Positions 36,755-53,403 of a DNA stretch of 56,280 bases are shown here, piece by piece (position 1 is the stretch's first letter; every line of letters starts with the position of its first letter). The position numbers and the translations under genes were made by a program. The DNA is taken from positions 1 through 56,280 of the forward strand of contig ONMJ01000010.1 of assembly GCA_900318955.1 (NCBI GenBank), read 5' to 3'. The stretch is from an uncultured Bacteroidales bacterium. GTDB lineage: Bacteria > Bacteroidota > Bacteroidia > Bacteroidales > UBA932. Below the pieces are notes generated by a model. The model was not told the origin of the DNA. It saw nothing but the letters and a program-made list of their open reading frames with translations, and searched no databases.

Positions 36755-39040
36755 TTATTCTTTCGCGTAGCTTGTCGCGCCGTATCCTCTTGTGAGGTTC
36801 AGCACCCTTTCCGGGTAATTGGAGATGATTGCATCCACATCGCATTTAATCATTCTCTCAATCTCCTGAGGATCGTCAACCGTCCAAGGAACTACCTTTA
36901 TTCCCTTTTCGTGGGCGAGTTTGACATTCTCCTCCGTTACCCCTGCGTAATTGGGGCTCCACCAGTCAGGAACAAATGAAAGATGGGAGAGGAGTTCCTC
37001 AAGATCAGTCTCCTTATTGGTCAGATATGAAAGGAAGAGGTCGGGATACTGCTCATGCATATATTCCAAGGCCCTTTCATCGAAGCACTGAACCACAAGG
37101 CGGTCGCCCAGATTCTTTGACAGGAGAAGCGGAATGGCTGTATCCACAAAATCGTGATACTCCGGCCATTTTACACCTTCGCCTTCCTTGGCACTTGTCT
37201 TTACCTCGATATTGTATCTCATCGGCGAGACTCCTATCTCAGCTGTATAGCTCTCGATGAAATCGATAAGAGCGGAAGCCAGAGGCTTATGCTCGCGAAT
37301 CTTCTTTTGCTCGGGGAAGCGAGGATTCTCCTTCAGACCTGTCTCGTACTTAGCCACGGAGTCATAGGGCATTGTATAAATGTACTCCCTAGGATCTTTC
37401 TTCTTTATTTCAGATCCGTCCGGACGAGTGCAATAATCGGGATGGAAGTAGTTCTCATGCGAAATAATCACCTTTCCGTCGGCAGTTATCTGCATATCCA
37501 TTTCAAGAGTATTGACGCCGAGTTCGATTGCATGCTGCATCGCCGAGAAAGTATTCTCCGGCATCACTCCAGCACCGCCTCTGTGGGGCTGCACATCGAC
37601 ATAGTCACTCATGTTGAAAGTATACTCCCACTCCCTTCCGAGAGGATTTGTAACCTTGATTCCTACAGTCTTTGCATACTGGGAAGGTATTGCAGCGAAA
37701 TAATGGATATTAAGACGAGGTTTCTTATACTGAGAGACGCTCTTTTTTCTAGGAGCGAAAACAGCGTTGATCTCTTTAATGTAAGTAGGAGAGACATCAG
37801 CAACAGGTGCAAGCTCACCCATAAGGGCGCCGTCCTGGTACCATTCTACTGTCCAACCCTCATCATAGTCCCATACATTAGCGACAAGGGCATTCGGATA
37901 CCTTGGAGACTGGCCGAGATCGATGAATTCTACCTGATAATCGTCCGGATAATCTACATTATGCCAGGACCAAGTCAGATAATTACCGACATTGTTGAAT
38001 ATCTCGTATCCTCGAGGGGTTCCGTCGTTGCAGATCTTGGTATCCCACCACGCTCCGCAAAGGCTTGCGGCGTTGTGCTCGTGGATATTGTCAGAATAGG
38101 TAAAATTATTCTGAATATGGGTATGTCCGGAAAGGAAGTCCACATCGTAGTCTTTCACTACTTCGAGCATCCTGTCAGCATTGACAATATACTTGTCTGT
38201 CCACCAGTGGTACAGAGGACTATGCTGCCCGATAAAAATATGCGTTCCGGAAGGAATATAGCTAAGAAGACCTTCCAGCCAGTCGAGAGTCGAATCTTTA
38301 TAGCCCTCCTTATACTTTCCGCTCTTTGTAGGATCGCCTATTCCATTGCCCGTAAAGATGATATCTTCCAGTCCGATGACAAGGTCATTACCAAGGAAGA
38401 AAGCATAATTGACAGGTCCAAAGGCCTCCCTGTAGGCCTCTGATGCTTCTTCTCCCCCTTTGTCCTGGATAAAGTCGTGATTACCGATGACATTGTAAAC
38501 GGGAATACCCAGTTGAGACATTGCCGCCTTATAGTCAGGGAAGACTTCCGTAAGATTCCATCCGAGATCCCCGAGGCAAATAGCAACGGTATTACGCTCC
38601 TTGCTATATTTTGCGGCCTGCTCGATAAGGTCCTTCAGGGGTTCTGCAGAGAATTTCTCAAAATGGTCATACCCACCTTGAACCGACTTCATCTGGGGAT
38701 CCGAGATCGAGAAGAGGGTATAATCAGATGAAGGAGAGGTAGCCTTAAGGTCGAAATTGTATTTCGAGGACTCAGTGAGCTTCTGATAGAATTCGGTAGT
38801 CCCGGAAGAGTAATCGGCAACGAAGCCGGAAGGGGTTACCAAATAGACAAAATTAGCAGCAGGATCAACTTCAAGCGAATACTTCCCCCTGGAATTGGTC
38901 TGCGTAAAATTCTTTCCATCGGTTACAATCACACCGGAAAGCGCCTTGCCTTCTCCGGTCACCTTTCCCTTTACCTTTCGCGCCTCAGATGTTGAAGCAA
39001 CGGTAAGGAATGCGAGAAGAATGATGAGAAATTTTTTCAT
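36755..39040 (-). CDS. Secreted metallophosphoesterase fused to GDPD
   Basis: A 761-aa protein with a cleavable signal peptide (FLIILLAFLTVASTSEA). Residues ~22-100 are a Metallophos_N/CarboxypepD_reg-like domain (GKALSGVIVTDG). A calcineurin-like phosphoesterase follows: SDPQ (Asp114), LGDLGWN, GNHD (186-189), GQHSP and SGHTH. A Metallophos_C domain runs to ~480. Residues ~481-761 are a glycerophosphodiester phosphodiesterase: HRGG with His486, MPENTF, LEMD (Glu513, Asp515) and ISHEN (His528; HE replaces the usual HD). The GDPD should release glycerol-3-phosphate from diesters in the periplasm; the other domain may take a further ester. Start predicted from a near-consensus TATATTTA 20 bases upstream. 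It ends the phosphoesterase locus. Confidence 0.92.
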   Translation of the reverse strand: MKKFLIILLAFLTVASTSEARKVKGKVTGEGKALSGVIVTDGKNFTQTNSRGKYSLEVDPAANFVYLVTPSGFVADYSSGTTEFYQKLTESSKYNFDLKATSPSSDYTLFSISDPQMKSVQGGYDHFEKFSAEPLKDLIEQAAKYSKERNTVAICLGDLGWNLTEVFPDYKAAMSQLGIPVYNVIGNHDFIQDKGGEEASEAYREAFGPVNYAFFLGNDLVIGLEDIIFTGNGIGDPTKSGKYKEGYKDSTLDWLEGLLSYIPSGTHIFIGQHSPLYHWWTDKYIVNADRMLEVVKDYDVDFLSGHTHIQNNFTYSDNIHEHNAASLCGAWWDTKICNDGTPRGYEIFNNVGNYLTWSWHNVDYPDDYQVEFIDLGQSPRYPNALVANVWDYDEGWTVEWYQDGALMGELAPVADVSPTYIKEINAVFAPRKKSVSQYKKPRLNIHYFAAIPSQYAKTVGIKVTNPLGREWEYTFNMSDYVDVQPHRGGAGVMPENTFSAMQHAIELGVNTLEMDMQITADGKVIISHENYFHPDYCTRPDGSEIKKKDPREYIYTMPYDSVAKYETGLKENPRFPEQKKIREHKPLASALIDFIESYTAEIGVSPMRYNIEVKTSAKEGEGVKWPEYHDFVDTAIPLLLSKNLGDRLVVQCFDERALEYMHEQYPDLFLSYLTNKETDLEELLSHLSFVPDWWSPNYAGVTEENVKLAHEKGIKVVPWTVDDPQEIERMIKCDVDAIISNYPERVLNLTRGYGATSYAKE

Positions 39041-39086
39041 ATTAGACTTTTTATGATAGAATCACGTAAATATAAACAATATTTTC

Positions 39087-39494
39087 CTAATAAAGCCCTT
39101 TCAGTATCGATAGATCGAAATCTCCGAATATTTCCCTTGTCTTCGAGAGAGCCTGGTCTTTGACCGACGGAGTAATACACTTTATAACGGTAAAAATCGC
39201 CCATGTCAAGGCGGCGAGATCATCTGTGTATCCGGCGACGGGTATAAAATCCGGAATAAGGTCGAGGGGAAGAATCAGATACCCGAGTGCCCCGAGAATT
39301 TTTGTGCGGTCCTTCTTGGGCGTCATCGGGTCTTTTACCACATAATAGAGAAGCAGGGCGGCATATACCACCTTTATTCCCGCTTTGGTGCCGAACACTT
39401 TGATTTTATTCCAGAAATCATTGTCTGAATAGTGACCGGAATACTTTTCATACCCCTGGTCATCAGGTTCTTGTACGTATCTTTCGTTTTCCAT
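39087..39494 (-). CDS. DUF1232 (YkvA-type) membrane protein
   Basis: A 135-aa protein with the DUF1232 signature in the middle: LLYYVVKDPMTPKKDRTKILGALGYLILPLDLIPDFIPVAGYTDD, where the ILPLDLIPDFIP motif is diagnostic. There is one or two short hydrophobic stretches and a polar N-terminus. Function is unknown. It lies between the second sulfatase-like gene and the phosphoesterase-GDPD gene, with gaps of 68 and 46 bases, so it may be unrelated to the locus. Confidence 0.88.
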   Translation of the reverse strand: MENERYVQEPDDQGYEKYSGHYSDNDFWNKIKVFGTKAGIKVVYAALLLYYVVKDPMTPKKDRTKILGALGYLILPLDLIPDFIPVAGYTDDLAALTWAIFTVIKCITPSVKDQALSKTREIFGDFDLSILKGLY

Positions 39495-39562
39495 TGCTTA
39501 TATGATTAGCCGTTGTATTTATGCATAAATCGAGCCTGTTTTGTGAATTTAAAAATAACCTA

Positions 39563-40954
39563 TCAAAACGGGTTCTGGGGAGGGGCGAAATCGTAGAAGG
39601 TCTTATAAGGGAACTTTCTGGGAGCGCCCGGCTTGTCAGGATAGAAATCAGCCATCTCATCTACTCTGGCTTTGAGCGGACGAAGTTGCTCCTGAAGCTC
39701 GGAAGAAGCATCGGCCCACATAAGGGGATGAGTAAACTCAGGATCCGTTCGATAATTGTAGATGCGTCCATCCCAGAAATAAGCATATGTATCATCCATG
39801 GCATAGCGGGAAGCCTTCGGGGAAGGGGTTGTAGGCCAAAGAGGATTGAAATGGACAAGGACCAGATCCTTTTTATTAGGTTCATTTCCACATAGCTCCG
39901 GATACAGACTGACTCCGTCAAGATCCCAATCCTCAGGTATTTCCACACCTGCAATATCGGCAATTGTAGGAAGAATGTCCGTAAGGTCCGCAAGATGGTC
40001 GGCCCTCCTTTCCTTGAGCCTGTCGCCCCAGCAGATAATCATGGGGACATGGGTCCCGAGATAAGTCGGCTCACCTTTTCCTCCGCGGACTTCCTTTCCG
40101 TCAGAGGTCTTGGAAAGAATCCTCGTAGATGTGCCATTATCGGAGGCGAAAATGAAGATTGTGTTGTCCCAGACGCCTTTATCCTTCAGGTGCTGAACCA
40201 TTTGTCCGACCTGCTTGTCAAGATATTTTACCATGTACTTAAAATACGAGGTGTCGGCCCCATGAATGAAACGGGAATCATAATTATGGTCCCAGTCCCA
40301 GTCATCAGGGGTCGTGGTATGGGGAGTATGGACAAGAGGTTCGGTATAATAGAGAAGGAACGGCTTTCCAGACGCCGCCTTGCGGTCGATATAGTCGAAA
40401 GCATAGTCCTGCATGGCGTCGGGGCCATAAATAGCGAAATCATAACGCTCGCCATTATTGTCCCACATGCTGTTCGCATAGCGGTCAGTCTGCCACTCAC
40501 CTCTCGATTCGAGATACATTTCTATCTGAGAGCAGAAGAACTCGTCGAATCCGCATATCGGGAGCATCGCCCTGTCTCGTCCCAGTTGCCATTTTCCGAC
40601 AATCGCAGTCTCGTAACCACCTTCTTTTGCAACCTGGGCGAATGTGTGTTCGTCCTGGTTCATATAGCCGAAATTGACATAATTGCGGTCATTGTAAAGG
40701 CCGGTCATCACCTGGACGCGACTGGGAGATGAAAGGGGCTGGGCATTCATGTTGGAATACAATATGCCCTGCCTGGCAAGAGAGTCTATGAAAGGCGTCT
40801 CGTACTCAACTCCTCCATAGCATCCAAAGCACTCGGCTCCGATGTCGTCAGCAAAGAAAAAGACAATATTAGGCTTCTGCTGTTTCGGAGCGGAACATCC
40901 CGCCAAAGCGGCAAGGGTGCCGACTCCGGCACCAATTTTTTTCAGATTATTCAT
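39563..40954 (-). CDS. Sulfatase-superfamily lipoprotein (Ser type, GKWQLG variant)
   Basis: A 463-aa arylsulfatase-like protein with a lipobox (TLAALAGC, Cys20). ADD (36-37) binds metal, and the nucleophile motif is SSPSR with Ser75, a serine at the position that is modified to formylglycine. The usual GKWHLG is GKWQLG, with Gln123 in place of His. Later motifs are VHTPH and FASDNG. Serine-type sulfatases are matured by anaerobic enzymes (anSME), none of which is in this window; a free serine would favour phospho-ester chemistry instead. It overlaps the preceding sulfatase gene by 8 bases (ATGAATAA). Confidence 0.88.
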   Translation of the reverse strand: MNNLKKIGAGVGTLAALAGCSAPKQQKPNIVFFFADDIGAECFGCYGGVEYETPFIDSLARQGILYSNMNAQPLSSPSRVQVMTGLYNDRNYVNFGYMNQDEHTFAQVAKEGGYETAIVGKWQLGRDRAMLPICGFDEFFCSQIEMYLESRGEWQTDRYANSMWDNNGERYDFAIYGPDAMQDYAFDYIDRKAASGKPFLLYYTEPLVHTPHTTTPDDWDWDHNYDSRFIHGADTSYFKYMVKYLDKQVGQMVQHLKDKGVWDNTIFIFASDNGTSTRILSKTSDGKEVRGGKGEPTYLGTHVPMIICWGDRLKERRADHLADLTDILPTIADIAGVEIPEDWDLDGVSLYPELCGNEPNKKDLVLVHFNPLWPTTPSPKASRYAMDDTYAYFWDGRIYNYRTDPEFTHPLMWADASSELQEQLRPLKARVDEMADFYPDKPGAPRKFPYKTFYDFAPPQNPF

Positions 40955-42494
40955 TGCGTTTTTTCAGTTTTGCTGTAATATCAGGATCATAGTAATCTCC
41001 GACGAGAGAGTGGAAAGAGGTTTTCATCGCCTCGAGCTTTTCGGGCTCGGCAGATGCCAAATCCCTATCCTGATGGGGGTCTTCGGCGAGATTGAAAAGT
41101 GCATATTCACTTAAATTACCAAGCTCCGTACCTGTATCCGGACGAACTTTTCGTCCATTATATGGAGGAATAAGAATCCATGGGCCCTCTTTCAAGGCAA
41201 GGTGGCTTTTAGCTTCAAGAATAAGGTTGTCGCGACCTTTCTTGGATTTTCCGAGAAAGGCTTTCGATAAGTTCTTGCTATCTATGTCGGTCGGGACGTC
41301 GGCACCTGCGATGTTTCCAAACGAAGCGAAGAAATCAAGCTGGGACAGGAATGCGTCAGATACCTGACTCTTTGTATGTCCTTTCCAATAAACAATCATA
41401 GGAATATGCGTCCCACCATCATAAGCGCTGTATTTTCCACCGCGGAAAATGCCGGCAGGGGTATGATCGGCTACCAGGGAGTCTGCAAGATCATTGTATC
41501 CATCCTGAAGGACCGGACCGTTGTCTGATGTGAATATTACAATAGTATTATCGAGGATTCCTTTTGAATCCAGATAGCGAATCACCTCTCCGACACACCA
41601 ATCCGCCTCTACGATAGCATCCCCTCGGGTCCCGAACGGGGTTGACCCGAGGAATCTGTTATTTGGAAGGCGCGGAACATGAGGCTCATGGAGCCCGTAA
41701 TAGAGGAAGAACGGCTTCCCGCGGTTCTCATCGATGTATTTCTTTACTTTCTGAGCAAAGTAGTCTGCCATCTCCTCGTCATTCCAAAGCGCTTTCTTTC
41801 CCCCTCTCATGTAACCGATTCGCGGGACTCCATTCACAATCGAGCAGTTGTGCCCATGATGCCATGTCAGCCGCAGCATCTCCGGATTTGTAAGGGCAGT
41901 CGGTTCACCATCGAAATTGTGCTTGTAATCGACCTCGATAGGATCGTCTGGGTCTATGCCTAGGACATTCCCATTCTCTACATAAACAGTAGGAACCCTG
42001 TCGTTTGTAGCCGCTATAAGGCAACTATAATCAAAACCTATGTCATTTGCACAAGGAGAGATATGCTCGTTCCAGTTGATATTTCCCCTACCCATACCGA
42101 GATGCCATTTACCGATTGCGGCAGTTGAGTATCCTGCGGATTGAAGTGCCTTCGGGAGGGTCGGTATATCGGTCGGGATTATCAGAGGTGCATCGCCCGG
42201 TAGAATCCTGGCCTCAGGGTTGGTCCATGGATAGAGGCCGGTAAACATAGCATATCGGCTTGGAGTAGAAGTAGCACTGGTAGCATAAGCATTCGTGAAC
42301 CTGACTCCCATTGAAGCAAGGGAGTCGATATTGGGGGTATGTATCTTTCCCATCCCGTAGCAGCTGACATCTCCGATACCAAGGTCATCCGCAACGATAA
42401 GCAAGATATTTGGTTTCTCCGTCTGCTTGGCACAAGATCCGACCGCAGTCGCTACTGCTCCAATGCCTGCTGCCACTTTCAGAAAAGGTTTCAT
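40947..42494 (-). CDS. Sulfatase-superfamily lipoprotein (Ser type)
   Basis: A 515-aa arylsulfatase-like protein with a lipobox-like VGSC (Cys21). Motifs are VADDLG (metal Asp36-37), STPSR with Ser76 at the formylglycine position, FTGLYPW, GKWHLG (Lys129, His131), EPHVPR and FTSDNGPV, the full sulfatase set. The enzyme probably acts on a sulfate ester, or on a phosphate ester given its neighbours. It has its own promoter, TAAGTTTG at 42516-42523, and follows the terminator of the SusCD transcript. Confidence 0.9.
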   Translation of the reverse strand: MKPFLKVAAGIGAVATAVGSCAKQTEKPNILLIVADDLGIGDVSCYGMGKIHTPNIDSLASMGVRFTNAYATSATSTPSRYAMFTGLYPWTNPEARILPGDAPLIIPTDIPTLPKALQSAGYSTAAIGKWHLGMGRGNINWNEHISPCANDIGFDYSCLIAATNDRVPTVYVENGNVLGIDPDDPIEVDYKHNFDGEPTALTNPEMLRLTWHHGHNCSIVNGVPRIGYMRGGKKALWNDEEMADYFAQKVKKYIDENRGKPFFLYYGLHEPHVPRLPNNRFLGSTPFGTRGDAIVEADWCVGEVIRYLDSKGILDNTIVIFTSDNGPVLQDGYNDLADSLVADHTPAGIFRGGKYSAYDGGTHIPMIVYWKGHTKSQVSDAFLSQLDFFASFGNIAGADVPTDIDSKNLSKAFLGKSKKGRDNLILEAKSHLALKEGPWILIPPYNGRKVRPDTGTELGNLSEYALFNLAEDPHQDRDLASAEPEKLEAMKTSFHSLVGDYYDPDITAKLKKRNE

Positions 42495-42515
42495 AATAAT
42501 GTGATTAGATACTTA

Positions 42516-42523
42516 CAAACTTA
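42516..42523 (-). promoter_or_regulatory. -7 box for the sulfatase-like gene pair
   Basis: TAAGTTTG on the minus strand matches TAnnTTTG and lies 22 bases before the ATG at 42494. No clear -33 TTTG is visible at the expected spacing. Confidence 0.45.
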
Positions 42524-42540
42524 ACAATTTTCAGAATTAT

Positions 42541-42580
42541 AAAAAAGAGACCGGCCGATAATTACTTACCGGTCGGCCTC
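42541..42580 (-). terminator. Intrinsic terminator after the SusCD transcript
   Basis: GAGGCCGACCG and CGGCCGGTCTC on the minus strand form an 11-bp stem (42570-42580 with 42547-42557) with one G-U pair and one mismatch, followed by six T. It lies 34 bases after the BACON lipoprotein stop and upstream of the sulfatase promoter. Confidence 0.75.
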
Positions 42581-42613
42581 AAAATAGAAAATACTAAAGA
42601 TCAGGAGGGATCG

Positions 42614-44860
42614 TTACTTACTGATCTCAAGAATAGAGTTGTTACCTTCACCACCGCAGAAACGGATGGTGCCTCCATTAGGAGCTGTCAGCGTCTTTGC
42701 ATCGTTTGCCTGACGGCTACTCATTGCAGTAACCCTGACCTGTACAGAAGAAACAGCTTTAGTAGTTGTATATGTGAATTCTACCCTATTGAGGTCAGTC
42801 CCGACCATTTCAACGTTGTACTGAACATTATCGCTATCTACGGTTGCTGTCTGAAGGTCAATCGGAGCAACCCACTCTGTTCCGTCCAGAACTTCAACTT
42901 TCCAGTGCTTCAATCCGGTGGCTGAAGTCTTCATGGTTCCCGCGAAATGGATTTTCGATCCTGCCGGATAAGAGCCAGGGAGTGTCATCGAATAGAGCCA
43001 ATAATCTCCTGGCCACGCTCCCGCGCAGTAAGGTTCTCCCGTCTTTCCAACATTTCTCACGCTCTTGCCAGCTGTGTCAATTGAGGTTTTATCAATATTG
43101 ACATATGTTAGCACGGCATTCTTTTCATCGGAATCTATATACTTACCTCCGTCTCCGGCATTCTTGTCATTAGTTCCGACATACGCGCCATCAGCGTCTT
43201 TTGTCGATCCTCCGAAAGTTGGGCCATAGGTATCATAGTGGTCAACATCGAAGAACCAATTGGCAGAAATATTTGAAGGCACATCATCTCCACCACCAGG
43301 AGTGATGTCACCATTGACAGCAACACCAATATTGTCGAGATACCAGCGGTTCTGGTCCCTCGTACTGGAGATTGAAGGATCTGCGTTGGTAGGTCTGATA
43401 ATGATCCTAGTGCCTGCATCAATACCCTTGATTGCAACCTTAACATTCTGCCAAGCGAAATTACTCAGATCACCTTCTGTAGGCTGTGAAGATTCGAATA
43501 CGCTCTGTTCGAGAGTACCGGTACCCTGAAGTTCAACAGTAATGGTCATGATATCCGGTTTCATCTTGCCAGTCAGCTGCCAGCACCAGTCGAATGAGAG
43601 CTCGACATCAGCTGTCTTGCTGCCGAGGCCATTGAACGCAGGAAGTACGATACCTGCATTATATGAGGTCTTACCGAACTTGAGATAGTTGGTCTGCAGA
43701 TAAACAATATTTTGGCTCTTTGAAGGATCGAGGCTGATATCGACGAAATCCTGTCCCTTCCAGCCATTAACGATTGAATATCCTCTATTGGCAAGTTCAT
43801 CGAGAACGCCGGCACAAGACTCAGCAGTAAAAATGTTAGGAGCGGTTGAAGAAGGATTGCTTGTCCCAACTGCATCTCCAGCGGAAGAAGCAGTAGTCCA
43901 AGGCTCCAGCCACTCGAAATCATCGAAGAACGGTAGGTTGAATACTACGAGAAGGCCGTTATCCTCAGCACCAGTAACAACCATTGTAAAGTTCGTTGAG
44001 CTATTTGCAATGATGTATCCGGTGAGAGTGGCCTTATGGCCTGCAAGGTTTCCAAGAGCCTTATCGGCCGAAGCGTTTGCTATGATGGAATTATCGACTC
44101 CGTCAATAGTGAGCTTAGAACCGTTGAATACACCTGAAACAGTCACATAATCATATGCTTTGAACTTGTATGAAGCAAGAGTAGATGTAATATCCGTAGC
44201 TGCAGGATAGGTAACTTCCTTATTTGAGACCACTTTGAAATCCTCAAGATCTATAAGGGTAGCGAGATCGGATGATGTTGATTTAGATCCCTTGAAAGAA
44301 AGGACGTCTCCAACCTTCACACTCTGCTTCGACTTGATATACATGAGAGCAGTGCCGTCAGAAACGATAAATCCGTTTCCATCCATTGCGACGACCTGAG
44401 GGCCGTTTACGCTGCAAAACTCGCCGTCAGGAAGGGCTGCAACTTCTGCAAGGCTCTTCTCCGCAAGTCCGCGATATTTGTCGCCTTTCTGGTAGACAAT
44501 CACATAGGAATAGCTGATAAGTCTGTTTCCATGGAATTTAACAGTATCCCTACGGGGAAGAAGTACACCTTCGGCATCCTTGTTGTCAGCCGCTGTGATA
44601 GTAACGCCTTCGGTCGTTCCAGACTGACCTGAAGTCTGAGAGAGGGTTATCCATGAAGGATAATCAGCCACCCAGTTTCCGTCAGAAAAGACCGTCACTG
44701 CTACGGGTGAGGCGCCCTCTGCCTCGAACTCAATATACTGCTCGCTGGCAAGGACAGCCTTTGCTACCGGAGATTCCTCCTGCTTACAAGCCGCAAAAAG
44801 CATAGCAGCCAAAGCCAAAGAACCGGCAATAAATATGTTCGTTATTGTTTTCATATCCAT
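42614..44860 (-). CDS. BACON/DUF5689 surface lipoprotein with jelly-roll and shared C-terminal domain
   Basis: A 748-aa lipoprotein (AAMLFAAC, Cys25). Residues ~38-110 match a BACON domain (YIEFEAEGASPVAVTVFSDG, WITLSQTSGQSG). An OB-fold-like DUF5689 region follows (~125-305, GDKYRGLAEKSLAEVAALPDG, IVSDGTALMYIKSK, VGDVLSFKGSK, VSGVFNGSKLTIDG). Then comes a jelly-roll-like segment (FFDDFEWLEPW, WYLDNIGV) and a C-terminal domain (~534-748) shared with the DUF4886 lipoprotein. No catalytic motif is seen. Its place after SusD suggests a cell-surface ligand-binding role, like SusE/SusF. It starts 6 bases after the susD stop. Confidence 0.85.
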   Translation of the reverse strand: MDMKTITNIFIAGSLALAAMLFAACKQEESPVAKAVLASEQYIEFEAEGASPVAVTVFSDGNWVADYPSWITLSQTSGQSGTTEGVTITAADNKDAEGVLLPRRDTVKFHGNRLISYSYVIVYQKGDKYRGLAEKSLAEVAALPDGEFCSVNGPQVVAMDGNGFIVSDGTALMYIKSKQSVKVGDVLSFKGSKSTSSDLATLIDLEDFKVVSNKEVTYPAATDITSTLASYKFKAYDYVTVSGVFNGSKLTIDGVDNSIIANASADKALGNLAGHKATLTGYIIANSSTNFTMVVTGAEDNGLLVVFNLPFFDDFEWLEPWTTASSAGDAVGTSNPSSTAPNIFTAESCAGVLDELANRGYSIVNGWKGQDFVDISLDPSKSQNIVYLQTNYLKFGKTSYNAGIVLPAFNGLGSKTADVELSFDWCWQLTGKMKPDIMTITVELQGTGTLEQSVFESSQPTEGDLSNFAWQNVKVAIKGIDAGTRIIIRPTNADPSISSTRDQNRWYLDNIGVAVNGDITPGGGDDVPSNISANWFFDVDHYDTYGPTFGGSTKDADGAYVGTNDKNAGDGGKYIDSDEKNAVLTYVNIDKTSIDTAGKSVRNVGKTGEPYCAGAWPGDYWLYSMTLPGSYPAGSKIHFAGTMKTSATGLKHWKVEVLDGTEWVAPIDLQTATVDSDNVQYNVEMVGTDLNRVEFTYTTTKAVSSVQVRVTAMSSRQANDAKTLTAPNGGTIRFCGGEGNNSILEISK

Positions 44861-44866
44861 AAAATA

Positions 44867-46723
44867 TTAGAAGCTGAGACCGTCATTCCATCCAGGATTC
44901 TGGCTGAGATTATTGTTGAGAGAACGCTCATCTATCGGAATCGGGAAGAAGTAGTCTCTAGCCTCGTTGAATGAAGGCTGAGGATCAAGATACTGGAAAG
45001 GCTCCAGATACCCCTTGTTACCGTCTGAAAGATAGACGTCAGTGCCAATCTTGAAGAGATAGGTAGCAGATGTCTTTGCAGGGACCGGATCTTCCGCTCC
45101 GTAGAAATTGACATCCATTGTACCGTCGCCGTCGATATCCACAGGACCTTTGCCAGAGATATAGATTCCTCTGTAATACTTTGGCTTGCTATCGGTAGCA
45201 TTGAGGCAGTATCCTGCCTTCCAACGGTCGATATCCTCGATTCTGAATCCTTCCATACAAAGCTCGACAGCCCTTTCGCGACGAATTTCAAGAATAACTC
45301 CCTTGTTGGTGCCGGTTACATTGGGATAGCCGTAGTCCGCAGAAGAAAGATATGGATCAGGATTTGCGTTAGCCTGGGCCATGTTCATATGAGGCATTCC
45401 TACCCTATCACGAAGTTTGTTGACAGAGATGTCCAAGTCATTCTGATCGAGAGTACCAAGCTCTGCCTTCGCTTCTGCATAGATGAGGTATACTTCTGCA
45501 AGACGGAAGATGGGTAGATCATTGTATGAACGGTCAAATTTGTCGTTTGAGGCATTGTTTACGGGCATCACCCACTTGCCGAATTGGAAACCGGTCAAGG
45601 TAATATTCATGTCAACGCCTTCCTTTACACCGGAATACGAATACTTGCCAGCATTTTCGGTAATTCTGGAATAACCTGGAAGACGTACAGTCTGAGCAAG
45701 ACGAGGATCGCGGTCCTTGACTTCTTCAACAAACGGCATTGTTTCCCAACCAGCCTTGTCGGTAAAGCGGGAACCATCTTTCATCAGGTACATGTCAACG
45801 AACTTCTTGGTAAGACTGTAGCGGCCTTGTGAGTTCATGAGAGAAATAGCAGTTCCGTTGTGGAAGAGCTCTGTTCCTAAATCGAAATTGACGGAAAGGA
45901 GGTACTCTTGAGGATACTCGTCATACCTTGAGAAGAGAACCGCATAGTCTAGGTTGGGATCTCCCGTAGAATAAAGTTTGAGAGAGCCTTCATCCATAAT
46001 CTCCTTTGCTGCCTTTGCTGCCAGATCGAGATAGTAGTTGTAATCATGCCCGTCAAGAACGAGATCGTGATACTTTCTGAACGTACCCTCAAAGAGGCAG
46101 AAACGAGCCTTTAGAGCAAGTGCCGCCCACTTTGTTACACGATAGTGATGACCGTTGGGATAGCTAACGGGGAGATTCTCAATAGCATAGTCGATATCCT
46201 CGATCATATGTGTCATTACAAGTTCCCTGCTGTCACGGGGTGCCTGAAGAATAGGATCGTCAGTACCGGGCTCATGATCAAGCCACGGGACATCTCCGAA
46301 ACGAACGACTTTCGTGTAGTAGATATAAGCCCTAAAAAATCTTGCGACGCCTGCATATTTCTTGTAAGCAGCTTCATCCTTGCAGTTTTTAGCAGACCAT
46401 TCCAGACAGGTGTTAAGTTTGCGGAGATCGGTCCATGACCAGCCACCGCCGGAGTTCGGAACAATCCTATTGTCTCCGCCCTTGATAAAGTCGGAGGGGT
46501 TATTCTTGATGACCTGGTCGCTCTGCTCGTTATAAACACCTTCCTTGGGAAGAAGGTTGTTGTAAAGCGAGTTGGTAAAGAGCTGAAGCTCAGTTTCAGA
46601 AGTAAAGTAAGACTCCAGTGACATCTTTGACTGGGGAGTCTTTTCCAGGACATCATCACAAGCAGTCAAGCCTAATACAGCAACTGCCAAAAGCATAATA
46701 TATTTTTTCATATCTATTTTCAT
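44867..46723 (-). CDS. SusD/RagB outer-membrane substrate-binding lipoprotein
   Basis: A 618-aa lipoprotein (LLAVAVLGLTAC, Cys22 counted from this start). SusD-like helices and TPR-like repeats include SLESYFTSETELQLFTNSLY near the N-terminus, FRAYIYYTKVVRFGDVPWLD, VTKWAALALKARFCLFEG, PIFRLAEVYLIYAEAKAELG and the C-terminal EIRRERAVELCMEGFRIEDIDRWK, YFFPIPIDERSLNNNLSQNPG. It lies on the outer face, capping the SusC channel. A start 12 bases downstream (46711) is also possible. The ligand cannot be read from sequence. Confidence 0.95.
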   Translation of the reverse strand: MKIDMKKYIMLLAVAVLGLTACDDVLEKTPQSKMSLESYFTSETELQLFTNSLYNNLLPKEGVYNEQSDQVIKNNPSDFIKGGDNRIVPNSGGGWSWTDLRKLNTCLEWSAKNCKDEAAYKKYAGVARFFRAYIYYTKVVRFGDVPWLDHEPGTDDPILQAPRDSRELVMTHMIEDIDYAIENLPVSYPNGHHYRVTKWAALALKARFCLFEGTFRKYHDLVLDGHDYNYYLDLAAKAAKEIMDEGSLKLYSTGDPNLDYAVLFSRYDEYPQEYLLSVNFDLGTELFHNGTAISLMNSQGRYSLTKKFVDMYLMKDGSRFTDKAGWETMPFVEEVKDRDPRLAQTVRLPGYSRITENAGKYSYSGVKEGVDMNITLTGFQFGKWVMPVNNASNDKFDRSYNDLPIFRLAEVYLIYAEAKAELGTLDQNDLDISVNKLRDRVGMPHMNMAQANANPDPYLSSADYGYPNVTGTNKGVILEIRRERAVELCMEGFRIEDIDRWKAGYCLNATDSKPKYYRGIYISGKGPVDIDGDGTMDVNFYGAEDPVPAKTSATYLFKIGTDVYLSDGNKGYLEPFQYLDPQPSFNEARDYFFPIPIDERSLNNNLSQNPGWNDGLSF

Positions 46724-46737
46724 TTTGAAGTCCCGAA

Positions 46738-49700
46738 TTAGAATTTAATATCGATACCGAACATGAAGGACTTCTGCCAAGGATAGAACATACGGTTGTA
46801 TGAACCGTCCCTGTTCAGTGCGCCTTCAGGATCAACATAGATAGAGTGTTTCTTGAGAGGAGACCAGTACTGAAGGTTTTCTCCAGTAAAATATACTCTC
46901 GCGCTGCTAAGGCCGACAACCTTGGAAACATTCTTCGGAAGAGTGTAACCTATAGTGAGGTTCTTGAGACGGAGATATCTGACATTCTGAAGATAACGGG
47001 TATTGACATAACGCAGCTGTCCCTTGCCGTTATATGCGAGATATGCAACAGCACGGGGGAAATATGCGTCAGTATTGTCATAATCCCAGCACTGATCAAG
47101 GAAATTCTTAGGAAGATATGATGTCATAGGCTGCGAGAACGGTCCCCAGAAAGCAAAGGACTGATACTGCGGATACCAGTAGTGGTTACCTGTTCCCTGG
47201 AAGAAGATCTGGAAATCGAACCCGGCGAAGTCAGCCCCGAGTGTAAGACCATACTGAAAATGAGGTAGAGAGTTTCCGAGAATCTTACGGTCTCCCGGAT
47301 CATCTACTGTATTGGCACCAATTCCGATAACACCATCAGGAACGCCATCAGGGCCGCTGATATCTTCATATTTGAGATAACCTGCAGCCCACTTTCCATT
47401 GGTAATCTTACCATTGACATAGGCCAGATTGACTATCGAAGCATATTCCTGTGCCTCTTCATCTGTCTGGAAAAGGTCATTAGCGACAAAGCCCCAGATC
47501 TCGCCTATCTTCTGCCCAACATAGAAATCCTTAGCGAAAGATTTGTTAGGGTTGTCATATTTGGTGATCTCGGAATCATAGTCGCTCAATGTTGCCCTGA
47601 AGAAATATCCAAAAGGTTTAGCGCCAAGTTTGAAGGAATCCTTCCAGGTAAGTGATAATTCATATCCCTTTGTGCGGAGGTCAGCGGTATTCTGCTTAGG
47701 TGCATCTGCTCCGTAGAGAGATGGAAGTTTGACACCTTCTGTGAGCATGTCCTTGGTGTCACGGATGTAAGCCTCACCGGTAAACTGGAGTCTGTCGTTC
47801 CAAAGACCTAGATCGAGACCGAGGTTATATTGCTCTGTCCTCTCCCAGGTAAGGTCCGAACTGTTAGGAGCCTGTACATTGGAGTACTTGGCAACTGTCG
47901 ATCCCTCACCGAATGTATAGTGGGCGAAGTTATTGACATTGATATTTCTGATATAGAGATAGTTGCTTACATTCTGGTTACCAAGCGTACCGTATGAAGC
48001 ACGAAGCTTGAGGTTGCTGATGGTGCTCTTAAGAGGCTTGAAGAAAGGTTCTTCAGAAATACGCCAGCCTGCGGAAGCCGAAGGGAAGAAGCCCCAGCGG
48101 TGACCAGCAGCAAAACGGGAAGTTCCGTCATAACGGCCTGAAGCCTCAAAAAGATAACGTCCCTTATAGTCATAGTTGAGACGGCCGAAGAAACCGAGGA
48201 GAGCATATTCGGACTGACCGCCCTCAATCATCATGACCGTAGAACCGTCCACAGCTGCACCGACAAGGTCAAAGTCAGAAAGTTCTTCAGTAAGAAGATA
48301 ATCACCAGTCATGGTAAGGCTCTTTGAGTGCTGAGTCTCGTAGTTGCCTCCACCCATTATCTTGAAGTTGTGGCCATCGCCGAAGGTATTCTCATATGTA
48401 GCATAAACATTAGTAGAATAGTAGTTGTAAGTTGTCTGGCTCTCAACAAGTTCATCAAGACCTGCTCCCTGATCGTAGACCTGTATCTCCTGCTCGGGAT
48501 ACTGGCGATAACGGAAATTGGTCTTTCTGTGCATATTCCTGTTCTGGTGGAACCTATATGTAAAGTTACCAACGATGGACATACCCTTGAAAGGCTTGAT
48601 AGTCAACTCAGAAGTATTCGCGAAGTCGGTTCTCTTTGCATAGTTGACATCCTTACCTTCGTTGAAGACGATATGACGTCCATTTCCTACAGCATAAGTT
48701 CCATTCAGCACTCCTGATTCGGGGAGATAGACCCAGCTTCCGTCAGGATTCTGCATCGGGAAGATAGGAAGAGCATGGGCTGCGCTGTAAGCGATAGCAT
48801 TCTCTGTATTGTCGACGCCGATGTAATCGTAACTTGAGCTATAGAAAGAGGTATTGTTTGAGAAACGGATGTATTTGTTCACATCGAAATCAACCTTCGA
48901 ACGGAGATTGTATTTCTGGAATACATCGGGATTAGCCTTGATGATACCGGTCTCGTTGTCATATCCGCCGGAAACATAGTAGCGTACGCTCTTGTTGCCT
49001 CCTGAAAGTGAGACATTGTGCTGCTGGACCGGATGGCGGTCATTGAAGAGGCTATGCCACCAGTCGTTATTTCCATAATATCTCCAATGGAGGGATCCGC
49101 TTCTTTCCTGAAGAACTGTCCAGGGACGACTGGGATCCTCGACCTTATCGTTGACACGAGCAAGAAGCTGAGTCATGTCGTAGTCATCATAGAGAACATA
49201 GTTGGAGCCTTCAGAAGCCATACGGAATTTATTGATAGTATAGACTGACCAATAACCCGTTGTCTCGAAATCGGTTGACGTCGTGGGCTCTTCCCAGCCA
49301 AAACGTCCGCTGTAACGAACAGTTGCCTTGCCACCAGCATCAATTCCTGATTTGGTCGTAACCAAAATGACTCCGAAAGCTGCACGAGCACCATAAACGG
49401 CAGCAGCAGATGCATCCTTGATAACTGAAATGGATTCGACATCGTTGGGGTTGACCCTGTTGATATCACCAACGGCTCCGTCAATGAGGACTAGAGGAGA
49501 AGCACCGTTAATGGATGTGTATCCACGGATGTTTAAAGTTCCTGTTGCACCAGGATTACCTGCTGAGGTAGTGATGTTGAGTCCAGGGACAGCACCCTGA
49601 AGCATGTTGGAAAGAGAGTGAGAAGAGCGGTTCTCAAGTTCAGTTGCCTCGACGGCAGTTACGGCTCCGGTCAAGTTGACCTTCTTCTGAACACCATAAC

Positions 49701-50031
49701 CGACGACAACCGTCTCTTCCAGAGTCATGGAATCTTCCTCAAGAACAATGACTACATTGCTCTGGGAAGGATTGACTGTAATCCTCTTGGCAGTGTAGCC
49801 GAGGCTGGACACTTCCAGTTCAACTGCGCCGGACGGAATTCTCAAAGAGAAAGAACCGTCAGCACCAGTAACGGTACCGTTAGAGGTTCCGACCTGGATT
49901 ACTGCAGCACCGGGGACAGCCTGGTCTCCGGTGTCGATCACTCTACCACTGAGTGCACGGTTCTGGGCATTCATCCCAAGAGCTATACACAGTGCTGTGA
50001 GCGTAAGAGCGATTCGTTTGAAATGAATCAT
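46738..50031 (-). CDS. SusC/RagA TonB-dependent outer-membrane transporter
   Basis: A 1097-aa protein with a signal peptide (ALTLTALCIALGMNAQ), a CarboxypepD_reg-like domain (LSGRVIDTGDQAVPGAAVIQVGTSNGT), a TonB box region (TVVVGYGVQKKVNLTGAV), a plug domain (NMLQGAVPGLNI, LNIRGYTSINGASPLVLIDG, NDVESISVIKDASAAAVYGARAAFGVILVTTK) and a 22-strand barrel ending in MFGIDIKF. No STN domain is present, so it probably does not signal to a FecR-type anti-sigma factor. It pairs with the SusD 14 bases downstream and is preceded after 27 bases by the lipoprotein phosphoesterase. Confidence 0.97.
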   Translation of the reverse strand: MIHFKRIALTLTALCIALGMNAQNRALSGRVIDTGDQAVPGAAVIQVGTSNGTVTGADGSFSLRIPSGAVELEVSSLGYTAKRITVNPSQSNVVIVLEEDSMTLEETVVVGYGVQKKVNLTGAVTAVEATELENRSSHSLSNMLQGAVPGLNITTSAGNPGATGTLNIRGYTSINGASPLVLIDGAVGDINRVNPNDVESISVIKDASAAAVYGARAAFGVILVTTKSGIDAGGKATVRYSGRFGWEEPTTSTDFETTGYWSVYTINKFRMASEGSNYVLYDDYDMTQLLARVNDKVEDPSRPWTVLQERSGSLHWRYYGNNDWWHSLFNDRHPVQQHNVSLSGGNKSVRYYVSGGYDNETGIIKANPDVFQKYNLRSKVDFDVNKYIRFSNNTSFYSSSYDYIGVDNTENAIAYSAAHALPIFPMQNPDGSWVYLPESGVLNGTYAVGNGRHIVFNEGKDVNYAKRTDFANTSELTIKPFKGMSIVGNFTYRFHQNRNMHRKTNFRYRQYPEQEIQVYDQGAGLDELVESQTTYNYYSTNVYATYENTFGDGHNFKIMGGGNYETQHSKSLTMTGDYLLTEELSDFDLVGAAVDGSTVMMIEGGQSEYALLGFFGRLNYDYKGRYLFEASGRYDGTSRFAAGHRWGFFPSASAGWRISEEPFFKPLKSTISNLKLRASYGTLGNQNVSNYLYIRNINVNNFAHYTFGEGSTVAKYSNVQAPNSSDLTWERTEQYNLGLDLGLWNDRLQFTGEAYIRDTKDMLTEGVKLPSLYGADAPKQNTADLRTKGYELSLTWKDSFKLGAKPFGYFFRATLSDYDSEITKYDNPNKSFAKDFYVGQKIGEIWGFVANDLFQTDEEAQEYASIVNLAYVNGKITNGKWAAGYLKYEDISGPDGVPDGVIGIGANTVDDPGDRKILGNSLPHFQYGLTLGADFAGFDFQIFFQGTGNHYWYPQYQSFAFWGPFSQPMTSYLPKNFLDQCWDYDNTDAYFPRAVAYLAYNGKGQLRYVNTRYLQNVRYLRLKNLTIGYTLPKNVSKVVGLSSARVYFTGENLQYWSPLKKHSIYVDPEGALNRDGSYNRMFYPWQKSFMFGIDIKF

Positions 50032-50058
50032 AATAAAATGATAGTTAGTTAATAATTG

Positions 50059-52002
50059 TTATTTGTTTAAATAGTTGTTCGTATTGAAGGCCTTTGGTCT
50101 TGTCATTGTCTCTGTGTAGACATTGCCGAAGCGGTCCGTCACCTTGACTGAGAGAGTAGAACTGGCCGATGACGCGTTCACTTTGAAGAAATGGGTAAAT
50201 GAATCTGTACAGAAACTGGGGCTTTTGGATGTCGACATTCTCTTTGCAGTCAAAGCTATGACATGAAGGGGGTCATATGCCCATACAGGAATGACTTCCA
50301 GCTCTTTTCCGTCTTCAGTAACGGATATTTTCCACGTAGGATCATAGTTCCAGACGTTGATAAGGACATCATTCACTGCATAACCGCTATAGGATGTCAC
50401 ATATTTCTGGAAATTGCTATTGTCGTTAGCAATGGACATTGTGACATTTTTCTTTACCTCGTTCATGTCATACGAACGGAACTGATAGCTTATCGGCCAT
50501 GTAGAAGACTTATACTGCCAAGTCATATCGGTACCGTTAACCTTAAGGATAGTATATCCGCCCGGAGCCCCGTCAGTAGAGACATGGACTCCGGGAGTAA
50601 GCTTGCCGCTCCACCACCATGCGGCACAAACGGCTCCGGCATTGTGCTCAAAATATCCGCCTTTTTCCATATTGTCATAATTGAAGGTCTTATGAGTATG
50701 GGCGGTAAACGCATGGACCTTATAGTCTTTCAGTGCGGCAAGAAGTGCATCCGTGTTAGCCTCTCCGGTTGCGTTCGCCCCTGACATTCCGGCATACCAG
50801 CCCTTCGAGTTCGGCCGCATTATCGGAGCATGGGTGGAGAGAATAATAGTGGAGCCCTTCGGAACATAAGCGAGGTCTTTTCTCAGCCAGTCCATCTGGT
50901 TCTTGGTGATGTCGCAGACATACTCTCCTCTCGCGTCAGATCCCGTACCCACATTGTTGTAGTCGATATCGTCTAGCACGATACCATGGATCTTGCCGAG
51001 ATTATATGAATAATAAGTAGGACCGACATCGCGTATGTAACGGAATTCTTTCTTGAAATCGCCCGCTTCATTCATATCGTTGTCATGATTTCCCATGGTA
51101 TGGAAGAAGAGGATATTCTTGAAGTACTTATTGGTCTCCAGAAGATAATTCGGGAAAGTGAAGTTCTTGTCATACCAATATAGATCCCATGTCATATCAC
51201 CGAGGGTCAGACAGTACTTTTTGCCGGAAGTCGCGTTGATCTCATCAACACAGTCAAGAGCAACTTCCTTAAACTGATTGAGGTCATTGTTGCGGTTGGC
51301 AAGATGCATATCTCCGAGAATGAAGAATGTGAAGTTCTCATTATCAGATTTAATCAGAGTGAAGTCTCGTCTGTCAACAGTCGAAATCGATGACGAAACG
51401 GATGAATGGAATTCAGGGAGAATGCCGTCTGAAGGGACCTCATAACCGCTTGGAATGGTCATGAAAACATATCCCTGCTGCTTCTGCGACTGAATCTGGT
51501 ACACTCCATTTGAATCTGTGGTAACCACTTCGTAGCCATCCGAAACGATAACTCCGGGGACTCCGACTCCATTGCAAGTGATCAGTCCATAAATGTTTGT
51601 ACCATCTTTGACTTCTATATCGAGAGATTTCATGACAGTAATCTCTGTCGCTCCTACGTACTTATTGATCCCGTTGGACTGGATATAGACTGTATACCGT
51701 CCTCCGACGAGATCCGACGGAAGCTCAAACACCAACGCGTTGGACCCTACGGATACAATCTTGCAGACATAATCATTCTGGGAAGCAGACCGCAGGACAA
51801 TATAGTCGGAAGTAGTAGCTCCCGTAGTTGCTATCAGACGGAAAGATATGTTATCGCCCTCCTGGACTTCAATCTTGGATGGCACCACGATATTGGACGC
51901 GACAATTTTATTGACGGATGTATTATTCTCAGGCTCCTTCCCGCATGAGAATGCCAGAATAAGCGAGAAGATGATAAAAAAACACTGTTTTGTTATTTTC
52001 AT
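50059..52002 (-). CDS. Lipoprotein calcineurin-like metallophosphoesterase
   Basis: A 647-aa lipoprotein (FFIIFSLILAFSC, Cys20). Residues ~30-125 are an IPT/TIG-like or Ig-like strand domain (SKIEVQEGDNISFRL). Next is a Metallophos_N domain (LITCNGVGVPGVIVSDGYEVV), then the phosphoesterase core: GDMH, LGDMTWD, MGNHDND, STHAP and AHTH (the usual GHxH with Ala for Gly), and a Metallophos_C domain. The last three domains correspond to those of the secreted GDPD fusion at 36755. It should remove phosphate groups at the cell surface or in the periplasm. It lies 6 bases after the GlpT gene. Confidence 0.9.
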   Translation of the reverse strand: MKITKQCFFIIFSLILAFSCGKEPENNTSVNKIVASNIVVPSKIEVQEGDNISFRLIATTGATTSDYIVLRSASQNDYVCKIVSVGSNALVFELPSDLVGGRYTVYIQSNGINKYVGATEITVMKSLDIEVKDGTNIYGLITCNGVGVPGVIVSDGYEVVTTDSNGVYQIQSQKQQGYVFMTIPSGYEVPSDGILPEFHSSVSSSISTVDRRDFTLIKSDNENFTFFILGDMHLANRNNDLNQFKEVALDCVDEINATSGKKYCLTLGDMTWDLYWYDKNFTFPNYLLETNKYFKNILFFHTMGNHDNDMNEAGDFKKEFRYIRDVGPTYYSYNLGKIHGIVLDDIDYNNVGTGSDARGEYVCDITKNQMDWLRKDLAYVPKGSTIILSTHAPIMRPNSKGWYAGMSGANATGEANTDALLAALKDYKVHAFTAHTHKTFNYDNMEKGGYFEHNAGAVCAAWWWSGKLTPGVHVSTDGAPGGYTILKVNGTDMTWQYKSSTWPISYQFRSYDMNEVKKNVTMSIANDNSNFQKYVTSYSGYAVNDVLINVWNYDPTWKISVTEDGKELEVIPVWAYDPLHVIALTAKRMSTSKSPSFCTDSFTHFFKVNASSASSTLSVKVTDRFGNVYTETMTRPKAFNTNNYLNK

Positions 52003-52008
52003 ATTGAG

Positions 52009-53403
52009 CTATTCTTGAGTAAGACGTTTTTCACTTGGGATAAGAAGGGCGCAGAGAACTACTCCGATAAGAGACCCGATTGCGACAGAGAGCATTGCGG
52101 CATCCCAGCTGCTGCTGTTGGCGATTCCGCCGACAACAATCTTGGAGCATACGGCATCACCGAGAAGGTAACCGAACAGGCCGACGAAACCGGCTGCAGT
52201 TCCGGCGGCATTCTTCGGAACCAGATTGAGGGCCTGAACGCCGGTAAGGGCAACAGGGCCATAAATAAAGAAGCCTATCATGCAAAGGGCTACGTACACA
52301 AGCACCTTCTGAGTTCCGGGCTCAGCCTGGATTATACCGGCACCGACCATCCAGTACAAGAGGACTCCAAGGCCGCAAAGGAGCATACAGATGACATTCA
52401 TCGGGGCGCAGCGTCCCTTGAAGATTTTAGAGGTTGCCCAGCCGCAGGCGATAGTACCGACAGCACCGACAATATTGTGGACGGAGAAGGCCACCTTACT
52501 CTCGGCAGCGGTCATGATTCCCTTGGCCTGGAGATATGTCGGGGCCCAGTCGCCAATTCCATAGCGTACCATGTAGACAGCGACATTAGAGATGGCAACG
52601 ATCCAAAGAAGCTTATTCTTCAGGACATAATCTACAAACAGCACTTTGAAAGGAAGTTTCTCTCCCGCCGCGCCCTTGGACTTGACTCCGCTATGATCGT
52701 TGCGCCAATCTCCAACAGCGGGAAGACCACATGATTCTGGAGTATCGCGGATGGCCCACCAGCAAAACAGAGCTATAACGAGGGCTATGAGGGCCGGGAA
52801 AACAAAATTACCGCGCCAGGACTGGGCGACACCGAGATCGGCGGCCAAAGCCACTCCGGCTATAGCCAGGAAACCGAGTGAGAAACTGCCGATGGTATGA
52901 GATACGTTCCAGATACTCATCTTGAAACTTCTCTCGTTCTGGCTGAACCAGTGCGCCATGATACGGCCGCATGGAGGCCAGCCGAAACCGCTGAGCCACC
53001 CGACAAGGAGCATCATGACAAAAATAATAGCGGTATTGACAGCAGTATTGGTTCCGAACGGGATCAAGCCGACTGACATCATCACCAAGGCAGAGAGGAC
53101 AAGCCCCACGCAAAGGAACTTTCTGGCATCGGAGCGATCCGAAACGCTGCCCATCACGAATTTACTGAAGGCATAAGCTATGGAAACCGCAGACATCGCG
53201 AGACCCACCTTACCGGCATCGAGGATGCCGTCCGCAATCATATCCGGAGCTGCAAGAGAGAGGTTTTTTCTCACTAAATAATAGGCCGCGTACCCGAAGA
53301 ATGCGCCAAGGAAGACCTTTAGTCTCATGGATTTATAGGTCTTGTCTACTTTTTCCTCAGAGATCAGTGGTTTAGGCTGAGGAGGATCCAAAAATCTTGA
53401 CAT
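52009..53403 (-). CDS. glpT: GlpT-type glycerol-3-phosphate/phosphate antiporter
   Basis: A 464-aa MFS protein of the organophosphate:phosphate antiporter family. The residues known to bind substrate in E. coli GlpT are in place: Arg45 (YYLVRKN), His169 (IWNVSHT) and Arg280 (VYMVRYGIGDWAPTY). GWPPCGRIMAHWFSQNERS and FFIYGPVALTGVQALNLVPKNAAGTAAGF are further family motifs. It imports glycerol-3-phosphate in exchange for phosphate at the inner membrane. It is the first gene of the SusCD transcript, with a full promoter and a palindrome upstream. A related organophosphate such as phosphoglycerate cannot be fully excluded. Confidence 0.93.
   Translation of the reverse strand: MSRFLDPPQPKPLISEEKVDKTYKSMRLKVFLGAFFGYAAYYLVRKNLSLAAPDMIADGILDAGKVGLAMSAVSIAYAFSKFVMGSVSDRSDARKFLCVGLVLSALVMMSVGLIPFGTNTAVNTAIIFVMMLLVGWLSGFGWPPCGRIMAHWFSQNERSFKMSIWNVSHTIGSFSLGFLAIAGVALAADLGVAQSWRGNFVFPALIALVIALFCWWAIRDTPESCGLPAVGDWRNDHSGVKSKGAAGEKLPFKVLFVDYVLKNKLLWIVAISNVAVYMVRYGIGDWAPTYLQAKGIMTAAESKVAFSVHNIVGAVGTIACGWATSKIFKGRCAPMNVICMLLCGLGVLLYWMVGAGIIQAEPGTQKVLVYVALCMIGFFIYGPVALTGVQALNLVPKNAAGTAAGFVGLFGYLLGDAVCSKIVVGGIANSSSWDAAMLSVAIGSLIGVVLCALLIPSEKRLTQE

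Follow-up and report, generated by a model that had tools for sequence, protein, structure and literature searches.

Nine co-oriented minus-strand genes (open reading frames) fill positions 36755-53403 of the window, the 56,280-nucleotide stretch of contig ONMJ01000010.1 (assembly GCA_900318955.1, an uncultured Bacteroidales bacterium) analysed here, and we interpret them, with a probability of roughly 0.6, as an operon for SusCD-based use of phosphoesters, in this case of a glycerophosphate form. The phosphoester role of the locus is well supported, and release and import of glycerol-3-phosphate is the likely, and best, reading for the variant in the window. The data behind this interpretation are the genes themselves, their intact catalytic and substrate residues, a gene core conserved in relatives, and the recurrent linkage of a GlpT-type antiporter, a metallophosphoesterase (MPE) and a fusion of an MPE with a glycerophosphodiester phosphodiesterase (GDPD). 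All genes named in the original prediction, made from the sequence of this DNA, were confirmed as minus-strand open frames, but a ninth gene, encoding a DUF1232 protein, had been overlooked. In operon order, the genes are as follows:

52009..53403, minus strand: GlpT-type glycerol-3-phosphate:phosphate antiporter, 464 aa, first gene of the operon (best model TIGR00712)
50059..52002, minus strand: lipoprotein MPE, 647 aa (MetallophosN, Metallophos, MetallophosC)
46738..50031, minus strand: SusC, TonB-dependent outer-membrane transporter, 1097 aa (TIGR04056, 878 bits)
44867..46723, minus strand: SusD, substrate-binding lipoprotein, 618 aa (PF07980, 170 bits)
42614..44860, minus strand: BACON-type lipoprotein, putative surface binding protein, 748 aa (BACON 19.5 bits, under cut-off)
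40947..42494, minus strand: SULF1, Ser-type sulfatase, probably S1_15, 515 aa (PF00884; 708 bits to 7ozc)
39563..40954, minus strand: SULF2, second Ser-type sulfatase, 463 aa (PF00884, 148 bits)
39087..39494, minus strand: DUF1232 protein, 135 aa (PF06803)
36755..39040, minus strand: secreted MPE-GDPD fusion, 761 aa, last gene (PF16371, PF00149, PF16370, PF03009)

The intergenic gaps, in gene order, were 6, 27, 14, 6, 119, -8, 68 and 46 bp, and such spacing together with the shared orientation fits a single operon. One boundary is formed by grpE/dnaJ, on the opposite strand from 53562 on, and the other by a convergent ABC-F-like gene with two ABC ATPase domains, which ends at 36753. As had been predicted, a Pfam scan of the nine proteins at E 0.001 detected no domain of a glycoside hydrolase (GH) or polysaccharide lyase (PL). 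Judged from the N-terminal sequences, with no predictor, the MPE, SusD, the BACON protein and both sulfatases look like lipoproteins and the MPE-GDPD fusion looks secreted. The source genome, which probably belongs to Cryptobacteroides, comprises 2.40 Mb in 67 contigs and is 98.9% complete; it holds 12 PF03009 (GDPD) and 10 MetallophosC matches.

Proteins of the proposed glycerophosphate route

GlpT takes in glycerol-3-phosphate while exporting phosphate. The window protein scored highest with TIGR00712 (460.4 bits, against 300 for UhpC, 250 for PgtP (NF047787) and 234 for UhpT), a score below the curated cut-off of 632.55, so that the protein is GlpT-like and not a strict equivalog by that cut-off. 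Its nearest solved chain was the glycerol-3-phosphate transporter 1pw4 (396 bits), the PDB chain numbering of which is one lower than that of E. coli GlpT. The five residues R45, K81, H169, R280 and D285 are retained, in agreement with the prediction of intact substrate residues, at the positions of E. coli R45, K80, H165, R269 and D274, which we take to be the substrate residues of that protein.

In the MPE, residues D231, H233, D269, N305, H306, H391, H435 and H437, presumably metal ligands by family membership, were invariant in 32 aligned sequences, and the structure model (pLDDT 85) had a catalytic fold nearest to those of purple acid phosphatases and Rv0805. The MPE-GDPD fusion was confirmed as well: PF03009 exceeded its cut-off, with 112 bits at residues 486-744, after PF16371, PF00149 and PF16370, and the protein carries HRGG, ENT, EMD and ISHE, which we take to correspond to the GDPD motifs HR, ENT, ExD and H. 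The GDPD half was nearest to solved 3ch0 (204 bits).

SusD had no close solved relative, the best match reaching 60.7 bits. The label BACON/DUF5689 given to the next protein stood in its first part, through the family, and not in its second: the window copy scored 19.5 bits with BACON against a cut-off of 25, 24/30 members of its family matched BACON (E 0.01), and DUF5689 was absent from the window protein and 29 relatives. A nucleic acid target, suggested by a DUF5689/OB-like domain, is thus not supported. A fold search with the model of the BACON protein (pTM 0.41) gave loose multi-domain beta matches, with TM (query length) no higher than 0.16 among the matches listed.

The enzyme activities, cell locations, step order and substrate that we infer would combine as follows. 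At the cell surface, SusD, the BACON protein and SusC would bind an oligomer or polymer that carries phosphodiesters and move it across the outer membrane; the captured molecule may then be cut by the lipoprotein MPE, through endo-cleavage or removal of a substituent; the fusion, if periplasmic, would trim the pieces and free sn-glycerol-3-phosphate, which GlpT would import in exchange for phosphate.

A conserved MPE-SusC-SusD-BACON core

We searched SusD in 200 related genomes, 80 of which had a match at E 1e-60 or less, and MPE in a named genome collection, which yielded 46 loci. Neighbourhood genes were called by a codon-usage caller; the 60 non-control stretches, of differing lengths, were chosen in order of falling identity and do not form a random sample. 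Duplicate SusD proteins and those shorter than 450 aa were dropped before counting, and L123, L124 and one short control SusD were dropped from the SusD tree (99 rows, quick method). The named relatives were metagenome-assembled genomes of Bacteroidales, many with ruminant-stomach sample names, together with Alistipes, Muribaculaceae and Heminiphilus records.

The window fell within a 56-row SusD clade (SH-aLRT 98). Directly before SusC, these rows had an MPE in 51 cases, Exo_endo_phos in two, another gene in two and a contig end in one; a BACON gene followed SusD in 55/56. Because 24 of the 56 rows came from the MPE query and are biased towards MPE, the 32 SusD-found rows, the window included, form the fair set, in which the position before SusC was held by MPE (27 rows), Exo_endo_phos (two), another gene (two) or a contig end (one), with BACON in 31/32. 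A phosphoesterase lay within three genes in 31/32 of these rows, the sole miss being L138, at a contig end, as compared with 5/18 of the other SusD loci of the source genome (Fisher p 3e-7, relatedness ignored); for MPE alone the figures were 28/32 and 1/18. The clade is therefore set apart although the source genome often has phosphoesterases beside SusCD, and MPE-SusC-SusD-BACON is a conserved core, one carrier of which is Heminiphilus faecis AM35 (L118).

Other enzymes were found in the place of the MPE. L125 and L127 had Exo_endo_phos in the slot before SusC and another after BACON; a paralogue on contig C57 of the source genome lacked a BACON gene and had, two genes upstream, an NPP-type phosphodiesterase; and L139, just outside the clade, had a NAGPA/histidine phosphatase fusion in the slot before SusC. 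The occurrence of enzymes with unrelated folds in one slot suggests that phosphoester chemistry is the shared theme. The prediction that the SusCD pair does not cluster with pairs of ordinary glycan loci held in so far as the neighbours in the clade are phosphoesterases, in a tree built without SusD proteins of characterised glycan loci.

Several further features of the SusCD neighbourhoods were observed. SusD rows outside the clade often had NAGPA and Exo_endo_phos genes, and some had FecR regulators. Among these, L139, L140, L146 and L162 had genes for NAGPA (phosphodiester glycosidase), BT_3987-like proteins or histidine phosphatases, some with FecR/ECF regulators; these loci perhaps act on GlcNAc-1-phosphate diester glycans. 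An rny-like gene (RNase Y) was divergent upstream of the core in 21 fetched loci, including L061, L064 and L091 (some contigs counted twice), and a zapA-like gene lay downstream in 19 of the 21, the Pfam identification of both genes being that of the L061 copies only. Among the 25 of 69 Pfam families listed for the 72 genes beside the 18 control SusD loci, one GH family was present (GH88, one gene).

GlpT and GDPD as accessory, recurrent partners

GlpT and GDPD are accessory to this core: within the stretches read, GlpT was present in 11/56 clade rows and GDPD in 7/56, further fusions being located just outside some stretches (e.g. L128 and L133). Of the gene order that had been predicted to be conserved, glpT-MPE-SusC-SusD-BACON with GDPD nearby, the MPE and BACON positions were thus upheld and the GlpT and GDPD positions were not.

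The accessory genes nevertheless recurred near MPE or near each other more often than the 0.2-0.5 genomes expected from random placement for each of three linkages. Of the 45 genomes having both GlpT and MPE, 19 had them no more than 10 kb apart; MPE and MPE-GDPD were no more than 12 kb apart in 13/19, and GlpT and the fusion no more than 15 kb apart in 9/21. The set used included GlpT down to E 6e-102, MPE down to 2e-134, 22 full-length fusions and 16 stand-alone GDPD rows, and left out weak rows, rows from other genera and rows with the MPE half only. In addition, a stand-alone GDPD (56-62% like the GDPD half of the fusion) was located within 3 kb of GlpT (43-49%) in 11/15 genomes. These proximity counts suggest that GlpT and this GDPD belong together, and in G120 only 23 bp separated GlpT from MPE-GDPD.

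Six genomes had a cassette that joins GlpT, MPE, a SusCD pair, BACON and MPE-GDPD: the window, L083, L072/L115 (G110), L126 (G024), L128 with G039, and L110 (coordinates agreeing with those of G013), the fusion being cut by the locus end in L083 and L126. The frame of L110 (8486-21831) retains GlpT, MPE, BACON and MPE-GDPD around an apparently swapped SusCD pair, with a SusC only 24% like that of the window and a SusD-like_2 protein replacing SusD. The order GlpT-MPE-DUF1232-MPE-GDPD, lacking SusCD, was present in L090 (coordinates agreeing with those of G095), and L087, L096, L099 and L104 had the downstream MPE half only, with no GDPD. Two full cassettes also enclosed a metallo-beta-lactamase-like protein, detected by a weak match at L126:11689-12900 (22.7 bits, at the cut-off) and as its homologue at L128:11770-12987.

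Sulfatases and DUF1232

Both PF00884 proteins carry the S-x-P-S-R motif, at Ser76 and Ser75, so that the serine nucleophile positions that had been described are present. SULF1 matched 7ozc with 708 bits across residues 23-506; this chain is BT3109, an S1_15 enzyme acting on 6S-Gal/GalNAc according to a table in PMC10154620. Given this closeness to a characterised enzyme, SULF1 probably belongs to S1_15. For SULF2, with 'Sulfatase' 6bia (131 bits) and iota-carrageenan sulfatase (130 bits) as the best solved chains, no close characterised relative was found. Since an anaerobic sulfatase maturase is encoded elsewhere in the source genome (488.5 bits, cut-off 349.45), Ser-type sulfatases could be activated. 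From their sequences the pair is best read as carbohydrate sulfatases; a role as phosphodiesterases is not favoured, with SULF1 being close to a 6S-Gal/GalNAc sulfatase (SULF2 gives no lead).

The two genes lie after BACON and before DUF1232, a place that is empty in L083, and they therefore look like a lineage-specific insertion. Within the stretches read, a sulfatase was present in 2/56 clade rows, the window and L066; in the latter, a SULF1 homologue (62%) and a different GDPD (PF03009 with DUF4996) adjoin the core on the opposite strand. A substrate with a sulfated glycan part is possible. The DUF1232 gene directly precedes MPE-GDPD in the window as well as in L083 and L090; in L062, L130 and L141 it comes after BACON.

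Comparison with known systems

The closest published parallels are the phosphate utilisation systems (PUS) of Flavobacterium johnsoniae. According to the main text of PMC8115612, PUSI of F. johnsoniae combines SusCD with two phosphodiesterases (pf00149 and pf16670), its SusCD complex is among those induced under phosphate depletion only, inner-membrane organophosphate transporters occur beside PusCD, and PusD itself is polyphyletic. Like PUS, the window locus has a SusCD-like outer-membrane complex and phosphomono- or phosphodiesterases in place of carbohydrate enzymes, with the two sulfatases as an extra, and it shares a pf00149 enzyme with PUSI as described there. Unlike PUS, which belongs to another host family, it has an MPE of the MetallophosN/C type, an MPE-GDPD fusion, GlpT, a BACON protein and sulfatases; GlpT is mentioned nowhere in the main text of PMC8115612. 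By analogy, the window locus, known here from its genes, may work like the published PUS.

With ordinary polysaccharide utilisation loci it shares the SusC/SusD pair, a further lipoprotein and sulfatases, but it has phosphoesterases and a glycerol-3-phosphate antiporter instead of GH or PL. The combination of GDPD with import of glycerol-3-phosphate also resembles gdpD-glpT pairs and the GlpQ/PhoD route of Bacillus, in which, as described in passages of PMC7086022, wall teichoic acid is attacked by exo-acting GlpQ and endo-acting PhoD. These roles match those proposed for GDPD and MPE, a likeness by role; whereas Bacillus degrades its own wall, the Gram-negative cell of the window would import a polymer from its surroundings by way of SusCD. 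We found no published description of a Sus locus with GlpT/GDPD or a calcineurin-type phosphoesterase in the open-licence literature, which is not proof of novelty.

Alternative explanations

A number of observations weigh against a glycerophosphate operon. The fold search with the MPE gave a general metallophosphoesterase fold, which does not separate specificities. The control consisted of one genome, that of the 18 other SusD loci, in which phosphoesterases are fairly common beside SusCD (5/18, and the Pfam tallies), and the linkage figures count related genomes as independent. Neither GlpT nor GDPD was present in the stretches read, which differ in length, in 42/56 clade rows, so that the core itself need not serve glycerophosphate. 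GH genes did occur in relatives: L147 is a counter-case, with GH106 before SusC and the MPE downstream on the other strand, GH31 lies inside the full cassette L072, GH89 follows BACON in L143, and GH92 is divergent beside MPE in L122. A search of the source genome for DAO_C, the domain of aerobic GlpD, gave no match, so that use of the imported glycerol-3-phosphate as carbon is conjectural. Finally, such an operon gives no account of the two sulfatases, of which one is close to a 6S-Gal/GalNAc enzyme.

These sulfatases are central to the alternative that survives best, although we consider it unlikely, namely that the locus serves a sulfated, phosphate-decorated glycan (e.g. host mucin or a microbial phosphoglycan), in which sulfatases and MPE would strip charged groups, the sugars would be the nutrient, and GlpT/GDPD would handle a minor substituent. 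The 708-bit match of SULF1 to BT3109, the maturase, the SULF1 homologue and GDPD beside the core of L066, the GHs in a few related loci, and the NAGPA, BT_3987-like and FecR genes at SusD rows outside the clade are all consistent with it. However, the window operon is without GH or PL, and in the stretches read a sulfatase accompanies 2/56 clade rows as against 51/56 with MPE before SusC.

We regard it as improbable that the locus is a phosphate-scavenging system, a PUS proper, that obtains inorganic phosphate during starvation from organic phosphodiesters of any kind, nucleic acids and lipid headgroups among them. Both the PUSI precedent, with two phosphodiesterases and induction under phosphate depletion only (PMC8115612, main text), and the replacement of MPE by Exo_endo_phos in two clade rows would suit such a role. 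An exchange in which GlpT exports phosphate during glycerol-3-phosphate import, however, would bring no net phosphate. Very improbable is a chance insertion of a SusCD cassette into a glpT/MPE-GDPD unit with no shared substrate: L090 does have the glpT unit without SusCD, and in about 20 fetched loci the core lacks GlpT and has rny and a zapA-like gene as neighbours, but the combination is seen repeatedly, with divergent GlpT proteins (91%, 62% and 66-68%), with GlpT upstream, divergent or downstream, and with the swapped SusCD of L110, and all nine genes of the window operon point the same way and are separated by short gaps.

Candidate substrates and implications

For the glycerophosphate operon that we prefer, polymers of sn-3 glycerophosphate, for instance wall teichoic acid, are likely targets, as are glycans decorated with glycerophosphate and diesters derived from phospholipids, although for these diesters, being small, a SusCD pair would seem unnecessary. 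As reported in passages of PMC7086022, GlpQ frees sn-glycerol-3-phosphate from wall teichoic acid, halts at glycosylated units, acts on sn-glycerol-3-phosphate ends and leaves intact lipoteichoic acid undegraded. If the GDPD of the window resembles GlpQ, wall teichoic acid or sn-3 phospholipid diesters would fit better than lipoteichoic acid, and the GH31 in the cassette of L072 would have a role. Lipoteichoic acid is thus weakened as the main target by these GlpQ data, and of the substrates proposed in the original prediction, glycerol teichoic acid in its wall form, phospholipid diesters and glycerophosphate glycans stay among the likely targets. That prediction is partly supported overall: as far as the comparisons went, gene order was conserved beyond SusCD and SusCD fell in a clade with phosphoesterase neighbours, and the phosphoester role and a likely glycerol-3-phosphate route stood, but its preferred polymers need revision and it left the sulfatases unused. 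The polymer, as it had itself said, stays an inferred one.

A more specific scheme, rather unlikely when taken as a whole, is that a Gram-negative Bacteroidales genus seen in ruminants harvests Gram-positive wall teichoic acid by Sus-like loci. BACON-SusCD would take in poly(sn-glycerol-3-phosphate), the MPE would make endo-cuts, MPE-GDPD would remove glycerol-3-phosphate stepwise for import by GlpT, and GH31 (L072) and GH89 (L143) might remove the alpha-glucosyl and alpha-GlcNAc substituents that stop GDPD.

Pairs of SusC and SusD are generally taken to import glycans, and the published example that we found of organophosphate uptake by SusCD is from plant-associated Flavobacterium. The SusD clade described here, with its phosphoesterase partner slot, filled in a few rows by unrelated folds, offers concrete loci in which organophosphate uptake by SusCD can be tested in animal-associated Bacteroidales, and its glycerophosphate variant would provide a testable link to the turnover of teichoic acid or glycerophosphoglycans between bacteria.

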